A stretch of DNA of 41,652 bases, taken from a virus. The notes under the pieces were generated by a model. The model was not told the DNA's origin. It did no database searches and saw only the letters and a list, made by a program, of their open reading frames with translations. Shown in pieces: positions 13,758 through 41,652 of the stretch; the stretch's first letter is position 1; every line of letters starts with the position of its first letter. The stretch lies in the IMG/VR virus record IMGVR_UViG_3300009379_000029, positions 1 to 41,652 of that record. One strand, given 5' to 3'. The position numbers and the translations under genes were made by a program.

Positions 13758-13924
13758 CCATCACAAAGGCTGAGCATAATCGACTGCTGGAATGTAAGGA
13801 GCAACTGGAGTTAGCGGAGAGTCTCCTCGAAGAGGCCCATTCCTATATGGATGACACGCATGGATACAACTCGGATATCTTCGCAGAGATCACCACTTTT
13901 CTCTACGGGGAGGATGAGGACTAA
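13733..13924 (+). CDS. Small acidic coiled-coil protein, unknown
   Basis: 63 residues, about one third Asp/Glu, with a helix EHNRLLECKEQLELAESLLEE suited to a coiled coil. Starts at TTG 13733 with AAGGAGG upstream; overlaps the exonuclease end by 25 bases and shares the A of the next ATG (TAATG). No function assigned. Confidence 0.7.
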   Translation: MDTTEQTVTITKAEHNRLLECKEQLELAESLLEEAHSYMDDTHGYNSDIFAEITTFLYGEDED

Positions 13925-14403
13925 TGGTTGAAACCAGATTGACCCATCCCTCCGGTGAGCAGTGCGTCATTACCTACGACCCCACCAAGGAGCGTGTAGG
14001 CGTGCGTACCACCAAGGATGGGGACTGGAAAGGAACTCGCACATCCTACAAGAAGGATGCAACCCAGGCTGACTACATGGAGGCCATTAGTGCCAAACAG
14101 AAGGAGGGATACGTTCTTGAGTCAAGAGAATCAAACACTACTGATATGCCTGGGAGCGATGATCCTGGTGGGTCTGGCGGGTCTGGCATCACTTTCCCAG
14201 TTGTAGGGACCATGCTGCTGCCCAACGCCGACACTTGCTATCTGATCGGCTGTTTGGACAATAGGTATCAGTTCAAAGTGGAAGCACCTATCGAGCACTA
14301 CGAGACTGCCAAACTGGGAGCCTCAGTGCGCATCCGCTACGAATCCACCGACAGCACCGGAGCCCCAGTGGACCCTGTGTTTATCGAAGTGGTGACCTCA
14401 TAG
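13924..14403 (+). CDS. Two-part protein with WGR-like N-terminus, unknown
   Basis: 159 residues. Residues 1-62 (RLTHPSGEQCVITYDPTKERVGVRTTKDGDW...DYMEAISAKQKEGY) resemble the N-terminal domain of the DNA ligase encoded just downstream, both ending in a KQ..GY helix. A Gly/Ser/Asp linker (PGSDDPGGSGGSG) leads to a beta-rich C-terminal half (YLIGCLDNRYQFKVEAP...ASVRIRYEST) that could be an OB-type fold. This might be a ligase or nick-binding accessory protein; that is inference. ATG 13924 overlaps the previous stop. Confidence 0.65.
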   Translation: MVETRLTHPSGEQCVITYDPTKERVGVRTTKDGDWKGTRTSYKKDATQADYMEAISAKQKEGYVLESRESNTTDMPGSDDPGGSGGSGITFPVVGTMLLPNADTCYLIGCLDNRYQFKVEAPIEHYETAKLGASVRIRYESTDSTGAPVDPVFIEVVTS

Positions 14404-14867
14404 CAGCCTACAGTACTTCGGACCTTCGTGCCATTATTGAGGATACCCTCGATGAGATTGGCATGAATAGTCCGACCGCTGTGAACCTGCTGCTGGGGAC
14501 CGCCGCCCAGGAATCCAATATGGGTTACTACCGCCGTCAGATCGGAGGAGGCCCCGCCGTGGGTATCTTCCAGATGGAGCCGAACACCCTGTGCGACATT
14601 TGGACCAACTACCTCAGGTACCGGCCTGTACTGGACCGGCGAATGGGACGACTGGTGGATGACTTCAGCCCGGAAGGTCTTGTTACAAGTGACCGCTACG
14701 CCGTGATCATGGCCCGTCTGCATTACCGTCGTGTCAAGGAACCCTTCCCGGAACCCAATGACATCAAAGGTCTCGCTCATTACTGGAAGGACCACTACAA
14801 CACCAAGAAGGGCAAGGGGACCGTTGAGGAGTTCATCGAGAACTACAAGCGGTACGTGCTCACTTAG
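14400..14867 (+). CDS. Lysozyme / transglycosylase-like endolysin, probable ATA start
   Basis: Predicted to cut peptidoglycan for lysis. LLLGTAAQESNMG contains the putative catalytic Glu and is followed by GPAVGIFQMEP, CDIWTNYL and, later, RLHYRR and LAHYWKDHYNTKKGKG, typical of a phage lysozyme-like family with a QES...GIFQ pattern. The first ATG (14463) starts only 12 residues before that motif and would drop the helix SDLRAIIEDTLDEIGM that normally precedes it. The frame is open to ATA 14400, which overlaps the previous stop as ATAG. From there the protein has 155 residues. If ATG 14463 is used it has 134. T7-type amidase (gp3.5) was not found, so this is the likely lysis enzyme. Confidence 0.75.
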   Translation: MAAYSTSDLRAIIEDTLDEIGMNSPTAVNLLLGTAAQESNMGYYRRQIGGGPAVGIFQMEPNTLCDIWTNYLRYRPVLDRRMGRLVDDFSPEGLVTSDRYAVIMARLHYRRVKEPFPEPNDIKGLAHYWKDHYNTKKGKGTVEEFIENYKRYVLT

Positions 14868-15918: not shown

Positions 15919-15950
15919 TACATTAGGTCCTACATTAGGTCCTACATTAG
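15919..15950 (+). repeat. Direct repeats TACATTAGGTCC downstream of the promoter
   Basis: Two perfect 12-bp copies (15919-15930 and 15931-15942) and a partial third (TACATTAG, 15943-15950). Variants of the same unit follow the promoter at 34861. They fall in the transcribed leader directly after the start site. Role unknown. Confidence 0.75.
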
Positions 15951-16008: not shown

Positions 16009-16179
16009 ATGAGTGATTTACCATCAACCATTCAGGAGCTTATCGTCAAGCTGGACCAACAGTACCCACCTAAGTGCCCCCGTATTGAAGAGACCGAACG
16101 TGAGATCTTCAAGTATGCCGGGAAGCGTGAACTGGTGGATACTTTGAAGGTCTGGTACGGACGTAAGCCAGTAGTCTAA
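16009..16179 (+). CDS. Small protein upstream of portal, unknown
   Basis: 56 residues (MSDLPSTIQELIVKLDQQYPP...), helical, with EETEREIFKYAGKRELVDTL. First gene after the structural promoter. The ATG is preceded by AAGGATA; a stronger AGGAGG lies farther upstream. Position corresponds to the T7 gene 6.5-7.3 cluster; no specific match. Confidence 0.7.
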   Translation: MSDLPSTIQELIVKLDQQYPPKCPRIEETEREIFKYAGKRELVDTLKVWYGRKPVV

Positions 16180-16188
16180 GGAGCAGCC

Positions 16189-16374
16189 ATGTGCATGTTC
16201 AACCCACCGAAACCCCCACCTGTACCTGAGTACAAGCCACCCCCCGAACCCAAAAAGATCCGACTGAAGAAACCCAACCAGAAGACGGACGCTAAGACTG
16301 CCCGTAAGACTGGGACCAAGCGCCTTCAGATCCCCCTGAGTCCCATCAGTGAACAGGGAGGTCTTGGAACATAG
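16189..16374 (+). CDS. Proline-rich small virion-type protein (T7 gp7.3-like position)
   Basis: 61 residues. It starts MCMFNPPKPPPVPEYKPPPEP, continues with a basic stretch, and ends TGTKRLQIPLSPISEQGG. The RLQIPL ending near the C-terminus is a pattern I associate with gp7.3-like tail or assembly proteins just before portal in T7-like phages. ATG 16189 has AAGGAG upstream. Its TAG overlaps the probable ATA start of portal. Confidence 0.7.
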   Translation: MCMFNPPKPPPVPEYKPPPEPKKIRLKKPNQKTDAKTARKTGTKRLQIPLSPISEQGGLGT

Positions 16375-17939
16375 AGGCAGGAGTATCCCCAAACGACGGG
16401 ACTCTGGTAGCACGGTATAACAATCTTGATGGAAGGAAGGGAGGTCTCCTGACGTCTGCACGTCGATGCAGCGCCTTGACGATCCCTACCCTATTGCCCC
16501 CTGAGGGCTACAGCATCAGTGATCCACTACCTATGCCCTACCAGGGTCTTGGCGCAAGGGCCGTTCTGAACCTCGCCTCCAAGCTCCTCCTTACCTTACT
16601 TCCCCCCAACAGTCCGTTCTTTAAGTTCGGAATGGATGATGCCCTCCTCGAAGAACTCAAAGCTGCCCTTGGTAAAGATGGTCTGAAGACCCAGGTCGAA
16701 GCCAAACTGGTCAAGCTTGAGGAGATCATCACCAAGTACATCGAAGAGTCAGCGGTGCGGGTTACCATCTTCCGTGCCCTGAAGTACCTGATTGTAACCG
16801 GCAATGCCCTTCTGGAGATCACCGATGGTCCTGGGCGATGCTACCGCTTGGATCAGTACGTCCTGCGCCGGAAGTCCACGGGTGAACCCATTGAGATGAT
16901 CATCCGTGAACCCGTTGATATCAGTGAAATTCCTGAGTCGATGCATGCTGACGTGAAGGCCCACCAGTCCTACGAGAACAACAAGGAGGGTCTGATCCTG
17001 TACACAGGGATGAAGCTGGAAGGGAATCTCTGGCAGTACCACCAGGAAGTCTGTGGGCTGACCATTGAGGAGACCGAGGGTTCCTACTCCACGGCGAACC
17101 TTCCATACATCCCCCTGGCCTGGAACCGTAACGATGGCGACGACTATGGCACCGGGCACGTCCATGACCATATTGGTGACTTCAATAGTTATGAAGGTCT
17201 ACGCAAGGCAATAACCGAAGGTGCTCTGGCTGCGGCGCGACTTGTCTTTCTGGTTGATCCCAATGGTATGACCAATGTGGCTGACCTCCAGAGAACCGCT
17301 AATGGTGGGTTCTGTGCAGGGCGTCGTGTTGATATTGAGGCCCTCCAGGTGGACAAGGGTGCTGACTTCCGAGTGGCCCAAACCGAAGCACGTCAGATTG
17401 AGGAGCAACTGGCCCAGGGCTTCCTGATGGTCCAGAGTATTCAACGTGCTGGCGAAAGGGTCACTGCCGAGGAGATCCGCATCATGGCACAGGAACTGGA
17501 GGATACCCTTGGTGGCATCTACAGCGTCCTCAGCCTTGAGATGCAGCTCCCCCTGGTACGTATTCTGATGCACACCCTCAGTGCCAAGAAGGTACTCCCC
17601 CGCCTACCCAAGGACATCAAACCCACCATTACCACAGGCTTCGAAGCACTTGGTCGAGGCCACGATCTGCGTAAACTCCAGACCTTCCTGCAATACCTCA
17701 GTCCTTTGGGACCCGAGGTCATCGAGAAGCGCATCAATGTCAGTGACTATAGCACCCGTGTTGGTACCGGCCTTGGTCTGAATACTGATGGCCTTGTGTA
17801 CACCGATGAGCAGGTCCAAGCGAAGGAGCAGAACGACATGATGAAGATGATGGCAATGAATGGTGTCAACGCTGCGGCAGGACCCATGGCCCAAGCTGCG
17901 GCTGACAATATGAATAACCAACCAACTCCTGAAGGATAA
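16371..17939 (+). CDS. Portal / head-tail connector (T7 gp8-like), probable ATA start
   Basis: Forms the dodecameric ring at the capsid vertex through which DNA enters. From ATA 16371 it has 522 residues, close to T7 gp8 (536). The first ATG/GTG/TTG-type start is TTG 16476, giving only 487 residues and removing VARYNNLDGRKGGLLTSARR, which corresponds to the conserved first helix of T7-like portals. AGGGAGG (16355-16361) lies nine bases before ATA, and ATA overlaps the previous stop as ATAG. Conserved blocks include LTIPTLLPPEG, GARAVLNLASKLLLTLLPP, and PLAWNRNDGDDYGTGHVHDHIGD. The C-terminus is Met/Asn/Ala-rich. Confidence 0.93.
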   Translation: MEAGVSPNDGTLVARYNNLDGRKGGLLTSARRCSALTIPTLLPPEGYSISDPLPMPYQGLGARAVLNLASKLLLTLLPPNSPFFKFGMDDALLEELKAALGKDGLKTQVEAKLVKLEEIITKYIEESAVRVTIFRALKYLIVTGNALLEITDGPGRCYRLDQYVLRRKSTGEPIEMIIREPVDISEIPESMHADVKAHQSYENNKEGLILYTGMKLEGNLWQYHQEVCGLTIEETEGSYSTANLPYIPLAWNRNDGDDYGTGHVHDHIGDFNSYEGLRKAITEGALAAARLVFLVDPNGMTNVADLQRTANGGFCAGRRVDIEALQVDKGADFRVAQTEARQIEEQLAQGFLMVQSIQRAGERVTAEEIRIMAQELEDTLGGIYSVLSLEMQLPLVRILMHTLSAKKVLPRLPKDIKPTITTGFEALGRGHDLRKLQTFLQYLSPLGPEVIEKRINVSDYSTRVGTGLGLNTDGLVYTDEQVQAKEQNDMMKMMAMNGVNAAAGPMAQAAADNMNNQPTPEG

Positions 17940-32886: not shown

Positions 32887-33081
32887 ATGAAAGTACTATT
32901 TGACTATGAACGTGAGGGGTTGATCATTGGTGTCACCGGCTCGACCTGCTGGACCAAGAATGGTAAACCCCTGATGTTCTACGCAAGACGTGGACGAATT
33001 GCTGGTGGACACTTAGTCCAAGTCATTCTGTTCTGGATCTTGGCGATTACTATTGCTTACGAAGGGAAGTCTGATAAGTAA
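32887..33081 (+). CDS. Small membrane-anchored protein between the terminase genes
   Basis: 64 residues. Soluble N-terminal half (MKVLFDYEREGLIIGVTG...), then a hydrophobic helix LVQVILFWILAITIAY near the C-terminus and a short charged tail. T7 has Rz-type genes 18.5/18.7 here, but this product has no recognisable Rz features (no long periplasmic helix), so the role is open. ATG 32887 with AAAGGAG upstream. Confidence 0.7.
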   Translation: MKVLFDYEREGLIIGVTGSTCWTKNGKPLMFYARRGRIAGGHLVQVILFWILAITIAYEGKSDK

Positions 33082-34837
33082 AGTCTCAATTGGGGGCCTG
33101 AAAAAGGGCTATTCCAATCCGATTGACGGAAGTATCATCACCGGGGACCCCATCCTGGATGACTTCCGTAACTTCCTCTACATGGTGTGGAAGCACCTGG
33201 ACCTCCCCGATCCGACACCCCTCCAGTACGAGATCGCCCTTTATCTACAGGGTGGTCCTAAGCGACAAGTCATTGAGGCATTCCGTGGGTGTGGTAAGTC
33301 GTGGATTACAGCGGCTTTCGTTCTGTGGTGCCTGTTGCGCGATCCTCAGCGAAAGTTTCTTGTCGTCAGTGCGAGTAAACAGAGGGCCGACGCCTTCAGT
33401 ATCTTCACACTGCGACTGATCAGAGAGATGCCTATCCTCAAGCACCTGATCCCCAGGACTGAACAACGAGAGTCCATGGTCGAGTTTGATGTAGGCCCGG
33501 CAAGTGCCCACCAAGCGGCAAGTGTCCGGTCGGCTGGTATTGAGTCCCAGATTACGGGTGGGCGTGCTCACCATATCATTGCTGATGACGTTGAGGTCCC
33601 GAAGAACAGTGCCACCCAGGCCCTCCGGGAGAAGCTCCTCAAGTCGGTCAGTGAGTTTGAAGCAATCATCATTCCTGAAGGTAAGCCCCGAATTACATTC
33701 CTGGGGACCCCACAGACTGAAGAGTCAATCTACAACCTCATGAACGCCAAGGGATACGACGTCCGTATCTGGCCTGCACGGTATCCAGGAGAGGCGAAAA
33801 TAGCCGCTTATCGAGGTCACCTTGCTCCTACTATTCAGAAGCTCCTGAGTGCCAATATGGGGTTGGCTGGTGAGCCTGTGGACCCCCGACGATTCGATCA
33901 ATTGGAACTGCTGGAACGCGAGGCATCCTATGGTCGTTCAGGCTTTGCGCTTCAGTTCATGCTTGACACATCATTGAGTGATGCAGAGAAGTATCCATTG
34001 AAGACTGGTGACCTGATCGTAACGAACATCAACAGTGCGGTTGCACCCATTGGTATCCAGTATGGTAGTGGACCCCAGCAGATCACAAGGGACATCCCGA
34101 ACGTGGGCTTCAGTGGTGACAAGTGGTGCCGCCCTCTGTTTGCCGACACTACGCTGGCTCCCTATGAGGGAATCGTCATGGCTGTTGACCCTTCTGGTCG
34201 TGGTTCTGATGAGACTACCTATGCCGTCGTTGCCCAGCTCCACGGTAACCTGTGGGTCCTGGATATTGGGGGATTCGCTGGTGGCTACGAGGATGAGACC
34301 CTGGAGGCCCTGTGCCGAATCACCAAGCGTTTCTCCGTCAAGGCTGTGATCGTGGAAAGCAACTTTGGTGATGGCATGTTTACCCGCCTGTTGCAGCCCC
34401 ATATGAGGCGTATTCACGGGGTCTGTGCCATTGATGAAGTATCCCATAGTGTTCAGAAGGAGAAGCGAATTATCGACGTTCTGGAGCCTCTGATGAACCA
34501 GCACCGTCTGGTTATGGACGAGGAAATCATCCGTCGTGATATTCGGTTGAACGTCCATGTGGAGAACCGTCTGCACTACAGTCTGTTCTACCAGATGACC
34601 CGTTTGTGTAGGGCGCGTGGTGCCCTCAAACATGATGACCTTATTGATGCCCTGGCTATGGCTTGCACCTACTGGGTGGACGCAATGAGCCGGGACGAGG
34701 ATACTGCCATCAAGTCCCATCAAGCAGCAGCCCTTGCCGCAGAGCTGGAGAACCATCAGCGGAACCAATCTGGTCTATTTAATAGTGGACCTGTGAAGGC
34801 ACGCTGGGGTTATTCTGGGACGTTTACGGGGTTCTGA
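33074..34837 (+). CDS. terL: Large terminase subunit (T7 gp19-like), start uncertain
   Basis: Packages DNA with ATP hydrolysis and cuts concatemers. The ATPase Walker A is EAFRGCGKSWITAAF, with FLVVSASKQRADAFSIF and the Walker B IIADDVEVPKNSA; the nuclease half has VMAVDPSGRGSDETTYAV, VESNFGDGMF and LKHDDLIDALAMA. These blocks run parallel to T7 gp19 (586 residues). From ATA 33074 the product has 587 residues; ATA follows AAGGGA by six bases and overlaps the previous gene. The nearest conventional codon, TTG 33053, has no SD and adds seven residues. No ATG is available before the conserved core. Confidence 0.95.
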   Translation: MSKVSIGGLKKGYSNPIDGSIITGDPILDDFRNFLYMVWKHLDLPDPTPLQYEIALYLQGGPKRQVIEAFRGCGKSWITAAFVLWCLLRDPQRKFLVVSASKQRADAFSIFTLRLIREMPILKHLIPRTEQRESMVEFDVGPASAHQAASVRSAGIESQITGGRAHHIIADDVEVPKNSATQALREKLLKSVSEFEAIIIPEGKPRITFLGTPQTEESIYNLMNAKGYDVRIWPARYPGEAKIAAYRGHLAPTIQKLLSANMGLAGEPVDPRRFDQLELLEREASYGRSGFALQFMLDTSLSDAEKYPLKTGDLIVTNINSAVAPIGIQYGSGPQQITRDIPNVGFSGDKWCRPLFADTTLAPYEGIVMAVDPSGRGSDETTYAVVAQLHGNLWVLDIGGFAGGYEDETLEALCRITKRFSVKAVIVESNFGDGMFTRLLQPHMRRIHGVCAIDEVSHSVQKEKRIIDVLEPLMNQHRLVMDEEIIRRDIRLNVHVENRLHYSLFYQMTRLCRARGALKHDDLIDALAMACTYWVDAMSRDEDTAIKSHQAAALAAELENHQRNQSGLFNSGPVKARWGYSGTFTGF

Positions 34838-40510: not shown

Positions 40511-41652
40511 CGACGGGCTTGGTTCAGTGGTACAACGGTGATGGTGAGGCCACAGGCGACATAAAGATGCAGTTCCGACATCGAGGTAAGCGGGTTGCCC
40601 GTACCACTGGTTCGAGGGACATCAAGAGAGCCAAGGTGGTCATGGAGCAGGTCCGGCTGGAACTGGATGCAGACGCCGGGGTTACCATGGAGCGATTATC
40701 CACCGGGAACTACACACGCCTAAGTGAGGCCGTTGAGGTCTATTATAACGTTAACTGGAAGGGGACGCTGCATGGGGATGACTCCAAGGTCAAGCTGGAG
40801 ATCATCATCAACCATCTTCACAATCCCTACTGTCACAGCATTAATAGCATGATTGTGAAACGCCTACGCCGCTCCCTTGCCACTGAGGACATTGGGTCCC
40901 ATGATGAGCCTAAGTTCCGGGCACCCACCACAGTGAATCGTTACATTGCAGCCCTCAAGACGGTAATGATTGATCTCCAGAAGCAAGGCTACATTGATCG
41001 GCTCCCTGAGTGGGGGATGGTCAGCGAGAAGCCTTATCGAAGAGACCGAGTGATAACCGATCCTGAGTTAGGGGACATCATCAAGTACTGCCACAGGCCT
41101 GTCTATCGCTATGGTCGGACCAATGGTAAACGTGCTGTCCTCCTCGACAAGGTGACACGAAAGCCAATCATTAACCAACGGGCCACCGAGATGCGGCAAC
41201 GGGTGGGAGACCTTTTTCTGGTCCTTCGTAAGACAGGTATGAGAATAGGGGAGGCCACCTCGATCGCCTTTGGCCGTCACATTAAGATGGACCGTCGGGC
41301 CATAACGATCACCGCCGACATAGCCAAGGGGAAGTCCATCCGAACCATTCCAATGGCTGACGTTGTGTATGAGATCCTAAGCAGCATCACGCCTGGACCC
41401 GATGGTCGAGCCTTCCCATTCACCAAGGACTACGCTGACAAGGTGTGGCGACAAGCTCGGAGCCTCTTAGGGATCGAGGACAAGAACTTTGTGCCCCATG
41501 CCTTACGTCATACCCTTGCTACCAACCTCTTGGAGAAGGGGGTCCCTGTTGGTAAGGTCCAGGCCCTGTTGGGTCATGAGGATCTCAGCACCACGATGAT
41601 CTATACGCACCTCACTGCCGATGATATGGGGGGTGTGCTGAATGCAAGTTAG
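40489..41652 (+). CDS. int: Tyrosine recombinase integrase
   Basis: Integrates and excises phage DNA by site-specific recombination. 387 residues. The catalytic set is complete: Arg252 (TGMRIGEA), His337 and Arg340 (HALRHTLA), His363 ([10 protein letters not shown]) and the nucleophile Tyr372 (MIYTHL). The N-terminal 190 residues hold the arm- and core-binding part ([15 protein letters not shown] resembles a SAM-like domain). ATG 40489 overlaps the MarR-like gene. It lies immediately upstream of the RNA polymerase if the genome is circular, as in other integrase-bearing T7-like phages. I see no tRNA-like att site nearby. Confidence 0.95.

Follow-up and report, generated by a model that had tools for sequence, protein, structure and literature searches.

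Genes and features at the portal locus

The stretch of DNA analysed here, referred to as the window, is a 41,652-base record of a T7-like phage, which encodes a phage RNA polymerase, a portal, a T7-type scaffold and capsid, and a terminase. The features around the start of the portal gene are as follows, with the evidence for each in parentheses.

16189-16374, + strand: small gene preceding the portal gene, at the position of T7 gene 7.3, 61 aa (ORF list; homolog in the related contig L001)
16354-16363, + strand: Shine-Dalgarno (SD) site of the portal gene, CAGGGAGGTC (duplex of about -12 kcal/mol; suitably spaced from ATA 16371)
16371-16373, + strand: proposed portal start ATA, forming ATAG with the upstream TAG, a -4 nt overlap (no canonical start; distance to the TIP motif)
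16371-17939, + strand: portal (T7 gp8-like) gene, 522 aa from ATA (matches to PF12236, phrog_449 and T7 gp8)
16404-16478, + strand: codons of the conserved N-terminal helix (AlphaFold helix, residues 12-36; HMM of relatives)

The small gene had a homolog in L001 with a matching C-terminal pattern, and the gene at the equivalent place in LUZ100 is annotated as gp7.3-like. Its stop codon is the TAG at 16372-16374. As described in the initial annotation, no canonical start codon follows the last in-frame stop of the portal frame for some distance: after TGA at 16350-16352 the frame is open from 16353 to 17936, and the first ATG, GTG or TTG in it is TTG 16476.

Database comparison identified the product as a full-length T7-type portal, N-terminal helix included. 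The match to PF12236 (1e-62) began at residue 17 of the open frame (16401) and spanned positions 3-487 of the 489 in the profile, that to phrog_449 (6e-160) began at the same residue and spanned positions 7-514 of 520, and T7 gp8 (2e-101) aligned from its residue 16 onward, at codon 16413. Read from ATA, the protein would have the predicted 522 aa, compared with 536 in T7 gp8 (PDB 6r21). An HMM built from the N-termini of 222 relatives matched the portal frame with an E value of 3e-19 and gave no match in the other two frames. Codon-usage log-odds over 16371-16475 were -3.5 bits in the portal frame versus -25 and -28 bits in the others. Comparing the helix codons one by one with those of L001 gave no clear-cut signal, 11, 15 and 10 of 24 nucleotides being identical at codon positions 1, 2 and 3, respectively; the comparisons at the protein level were the decisive ones. 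In addition, an AlphaFold model of the ATA-started portal predicted a confident helix at residues 12-36. The profile, T7 gp8, the HMM and the model thus agreed with the earlier claim that the first T7-type portal helix is encoded upstream of TTG 16476. Judged from these comparisons, the region from about 16395 to 16475 encodes this helix, and its conservation implies that translation begins upstream of 16395.

Selection of the portal start codon

The comparison drew on over 300 portal loci from IMG/VR, GTDB genomes and phage records. After removal of identical loci and truncated ones, about 275 distinct relatives remained whose upstream sequence was intact. In every one of these the helix is preceded by ATG, GTG or TTG, mostly ATG, with GTG or TTG as the only choice in about fifteen, and the portal of the window was the sole one surveyed to lack a canonical start there. 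Alignment of the junction, as proposed in the initial annotation, revealed GTG in L001, the nearest relative (70% identical), and ATG in most others; every relative carried residues upstream of the position of TTG 16476. The ATA itself is not conserved among the relatives, and no closer one than L001 was found, since peptide searches for close contigs yielded L001 only and no second contig of the species. It was also noticed that the portal of Rhizobium phage vB_RleA_TRX32-1 (L121, 989-2654) is annotated as two consecutive CDS and may be split or frameshifted.

The motif AGGGAGG is located at 16355-16361, nine bases ahead of ATA 16371-16373, and this portal-frame ATA shares two bases with TAG 16372-16374, both as originally described. 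The SD site to which the motif belongs is among the strongest of the genome, one as strong at usable spacing being found at 1.2% of the + strand positions. Within 16353-16398, AGG 16359 and ATA 16371 are the only in-frame codons that differ from ATG by one base. In the relatives, the first canonical start lies 27-48 codons (median, 33) from the TIP motif; the corresponding distance is 36 codons for ATA 16371, 32 for GTA 16383, 25 for CTG 16404 and 1 for TTG 16476.

These values bear on two alternatives in which another codon starts the portal. Initiation at TTG 16476, giving a portal without the first helix, would make use of the first canonical codon of the frame; it is, however, extremely improbable, as it would remove a whole helix that is protein-coding in the portal frame, and no relative is so short. 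No SD site was found at either this codon or CTG 16404. The second alternative, a different non-canonical in-frame codon, was considered improbable for each of its candidates. CTG 16404 is where the predicted helix begins, but its distance to TIP falls outside the range of the relatives, and a start there would lose the PNDGT stretch that resembles them. Specifically, PNDGTLVARY, encoded from upstream of this CTG, is similar to NNDGCAKRY of CRP-804 and QGDGTAKSLY of L024, and the start is therefore probably upstream of CTG 16404. GTA 16383 is inside the range of TIP distances; nevertheless, it is two bases off ATG, and the nearest purine stretch abuts the codon. CTG 16449 and ACG 16452 are preceded by a strong SD-like site, whereas a start at 16449 would cut the helix. 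This site is a second AGGGAGGT (16438-16446) within the early portal codons; it could bind ribosomes, but is probably a coincidence of Gly and Arg codons.

As the identity to L001 is only 70% and the stretch from ATA 16371 to 16395 lacks conserved residues, the exact codon had to be chosen by elimination. Elimination, the SD site and the geometry of the junction together point to ATA 16371, in line with the initial proposal; support also comes from the relatives and from a repeat of ATAG at 14400 (see below).

A junction of this kind might alternatively reflect programmed frameshifting, either by -1, to fuse gp7.3 with the portal, or by +1 after TTG 16364, to enter the portal frame. Relative to the upstream frame, the portal frame is indeed at -1, without a stop in the 18 nt ahead of ATA, and TTG 16364 sits in the third frame. 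However, the overlap contains no X XXY YYZ heptamer, the folding energy at the junction is ordinary (z +0.6), and the relative frame in L001 is the opposite one, which makes a frameshift fusion very unlikely. Moreover, no slippery sequence is common to the two ATAG junctions, and the frame of TTG 16364 has poor codon usage.

Proposed ATA starts of two further genes

Further cases were sought by gene comparison with L001 and by checking nominal starts that lack an SD site. Two other genes of the window became candidates.

13924-14403, + strand: gene preceding the endolysin-like gene, ending with TAG 14401-14403 (ORF list; strong SD site; weak homolog in L001)
14400-14402, + strand: second proposed ATA start, overlapping this TAG as ATAG (site GAAGTGGTGA, -8.0 kcal/mol; start position of relatives)
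14400-14867, + strand: endolysin-like gene, 155 aa from ATA (assignment to phrog_3108)
33074-33076, + strand: probable third ATA start, that of the terminase gene; the upstream stop, TAA 33079-33081, lies in a -8 overlap (ATG at the aligned position in L001)
33074-34837, + strand: terminase large subunit gene (PF22530, phrog_38)

The phrog_3108 gene is annotated as endolysin in some relatives. In the window, the first canonical codon of its frame is ATG 14463, which is within the conserved part and has no SD site (-2.7 kcal/mol). The site ahead of ATA 14400 is only moderate, of a strength equalled at 12% of positions. Six annotated relatives have canonical starts about 21-24 residues ahead of a conserved S..A..L motif or further upstream, and all of 74 distinct relatives from IMG/VR have a canonical start ahead of this motif, the commonest distance from start to conserved Ser being 22 codons, compared with 23 from ATA 14400. 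In phage T2S1, the start of this gene forms an ordinary overlap of 4 nt. Folding of the protein without an alignment gave an uninformative model (pLDDT 44). On the basis of start position, site and overlap, we propose that the endolysin-like gene starts at ATA 14400, as an independent repeat of the arrangement at the portal gene.

For the terminase gene, alignment placed ATG of L001, located behind TTAAGGGAGTGTT, opposite ATA 33074 of the window, located behind GAAGGGAAGTCTG with a similar AAGGGA site; at the junction, ATAAGTAA, this ATA and the stop of the preceding gene form a -8 overlap. The SD site at this ATA reaches only -5.9 kcal/mol. TTG 33053, seven codons upstream, has a site of equal strength and is an alternative start, and the N-termini of terminases vary among relatives; for these reasons ATA 33074 is regarded only as the probable start by alignment. 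Accordingly, a canonical start is absent upstream of conserved coding sequence in the portal and endolysin-like genes but not in the terminase gene.

In the whole window, six overlaps of ATA with a stop codon join an upstream ORF of at least 45 residues to a downstream ORF of at least 60 residues, and the portal and endolysin-like genes are both among these six. Three other candidates were rejected: ORF 9574, which appeared to be start-less, has its true start at ATG 9733, conserved in L001; the holin-like ORF 11207 contains ATA 11300 behind a strong site, yet comparison with L001 places its start near TTG 11330; and ORF 31512 has upstream ATA codons but is likely to start at TTG 31554, which has a good site.

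The recurrence of ATA bears on two alternatives that concern the DNA or its decoding. It is conceivable that a sequencing or assembly error has obscured a canonical start, e.g., ATG, at or near 16371, the window being a single metagenome contig of which no independent copy was found, and the relatives having ATG or GTG. This is nonetheless unlikely: with ATAG behind an SD site again at 14400 and a probable ATA start at 33074, base errors would have had to hit start codons two or three times, and the large conserved genes were intact in comparison with L001. Alternatively, a changed genetic code in the host or phage, in which ATA is read as Met throughout, would turn ATA into an ordinary start. 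We give this virtually no credence, since internal ATA codons behave as Ile codons: among 29 of them aligned with L001, the counterparts included I (12), V (4), L (4) and M (1). Nor were phage tRNA genes found in the window.

Possible re-initiation at AUA and comparison with known systems

In E. coli reporters, AUA initiates very weakly, which makes it odd for an essential gene, and ATA starts are very unusual for essential viral genes. For a start of the NTG type, a -4 overlap requires the stop UGA; with AUA, the stop can be UAG or UAA. The commonest coupled junction in prokaryotes is the -4 overlap, followed by -1 and -8 (PMC10666635, PMC12548453). As to the cost of a near-cognate start, ATT has about 0.3% of the output of ATG in E. 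coli, according to Hecht 2017 as quoted in PMC10666635.

We propose, with a probability of roughly 0.8, that the portal gene is initiated at AUA 16371 by SD-held re-initiation, that the endolysin-like gene is likewise initiated at AUA 14400, and that this probably also applies to the terminase gene at AUA 33074. Ribosomes terminating at the UAG of the gp7.3-like gene would be held by the strong SD site just upstream, the overlapping AUA would then adjoin the P site, and re-initiation would follow, most likely with fMet, a -4 nt stop-start junction being thereby built with UAG. The endolysin-like gene would use the same device at AUA 14400, as would probably the terminase gene at AUA 33074, there with an overlap of -8. 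From the DNA we infer AUA as the initiating codon, re-initiation as the driver and low coupled output as the purpose.

Similar starts are known in bacteria. In S. aureus, infC, ccpN and citZ have AUA starts behind extended SD sites with about 10-30% of AUG output (PMC13009471); they resemble the present cases in having AUA behind a strong SD site, but are bacterial and individual initiation sites, whereas here phage genes on ATAG overlaps are concerned, known from sequence. The starts of E. coli infC (AUU) and Streptomyces sigR (GTC), which are discriminated by IF3 (PMC5472188), are also non-canonical starts in conserved genes that gene finders miss. They differ in codon, in belonging to regulatory proteins and in having demonstrated IF3 control, the genes here encoding structural and lysis-type proteins; output is kept low in those systems, and would be low in the phage of the window by our reading.

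Coupling at NTGA (PMC12548453, PMC10666635) shares with the ATAG junctions at 14400 and 16371 the 4-nt stop/start overlap and an SD site within the upstream gene, but the start here is ATA, so that a TAG stop is possible, while NTG allows only TGA. In termination-reinitiation of calicivirus and influenza B, almost any start codon is tolerated near the stop because rRNA pairing tethers the small subunit, and in calicivirus the identity of the start codon has little influence on re-initiation (PMC5972666). These systems involve eukaryotic ribosomes and another tether, and the likeness is an analogy only. Compared with the T7 gp8 family (PF12236, phrog_449), the portal would be an ordinary full-length member read from ATA, differing in the start codon alone. 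No relevant paper on phage ATA starts was found in the part of the literature covered. AUA starts are known in bacteria; a phage that uses them repeatedly at ATAG junctions seems to represent a new variation on this.

As a rule, gene finders take only ATG, GTG and TTG, and genes of this kind are consequently shortened or lost; standard calling of the window would give a portal without its first helix and an endolysin-like protein without its N-terminus. If the proposed starts are correct, essential phage genes can rely on a poorly initiating codon, given an overlap with the upstream stop and a good SD site, and a lower start-codon strictness of re-initiating bacterial ribosomes, as in calicivirus, would become directly testable.

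A broader reading is that AUA in the portal, endolysin-like and terminase genes, always at stop-overlapping junctions (-4 ATAG or -8), serves as a recurrent coupling signal of the lineage with low output, made possible either by ribosomes that re-initiate or by lax start selection in the host; we offer this tentatively, with a little less than even confidence. TTG or GTG was found where the L001 orthologs have ATG at 2926, 7518, 17943, 18861, 22992 and 29426, including the genes for the major capsid and scaffold proteins. Because of these replacements in several genes, a relaxed choice of start codon seems to be a more general trait of the phage lineage to which the window belongs.

With regard to the record as a whole, its first base is that of the RNA polymerase ATG and position 41652 ends the stop codon of the last ORF; the L001 record likewise begins at the RNA polymerase ATG, and both may be rotated circular contigs. 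In addition, a short direct repeat, ACATTAGGTCCT, was observed at 15920-15950, in the gap ahead of the gene at 16009.
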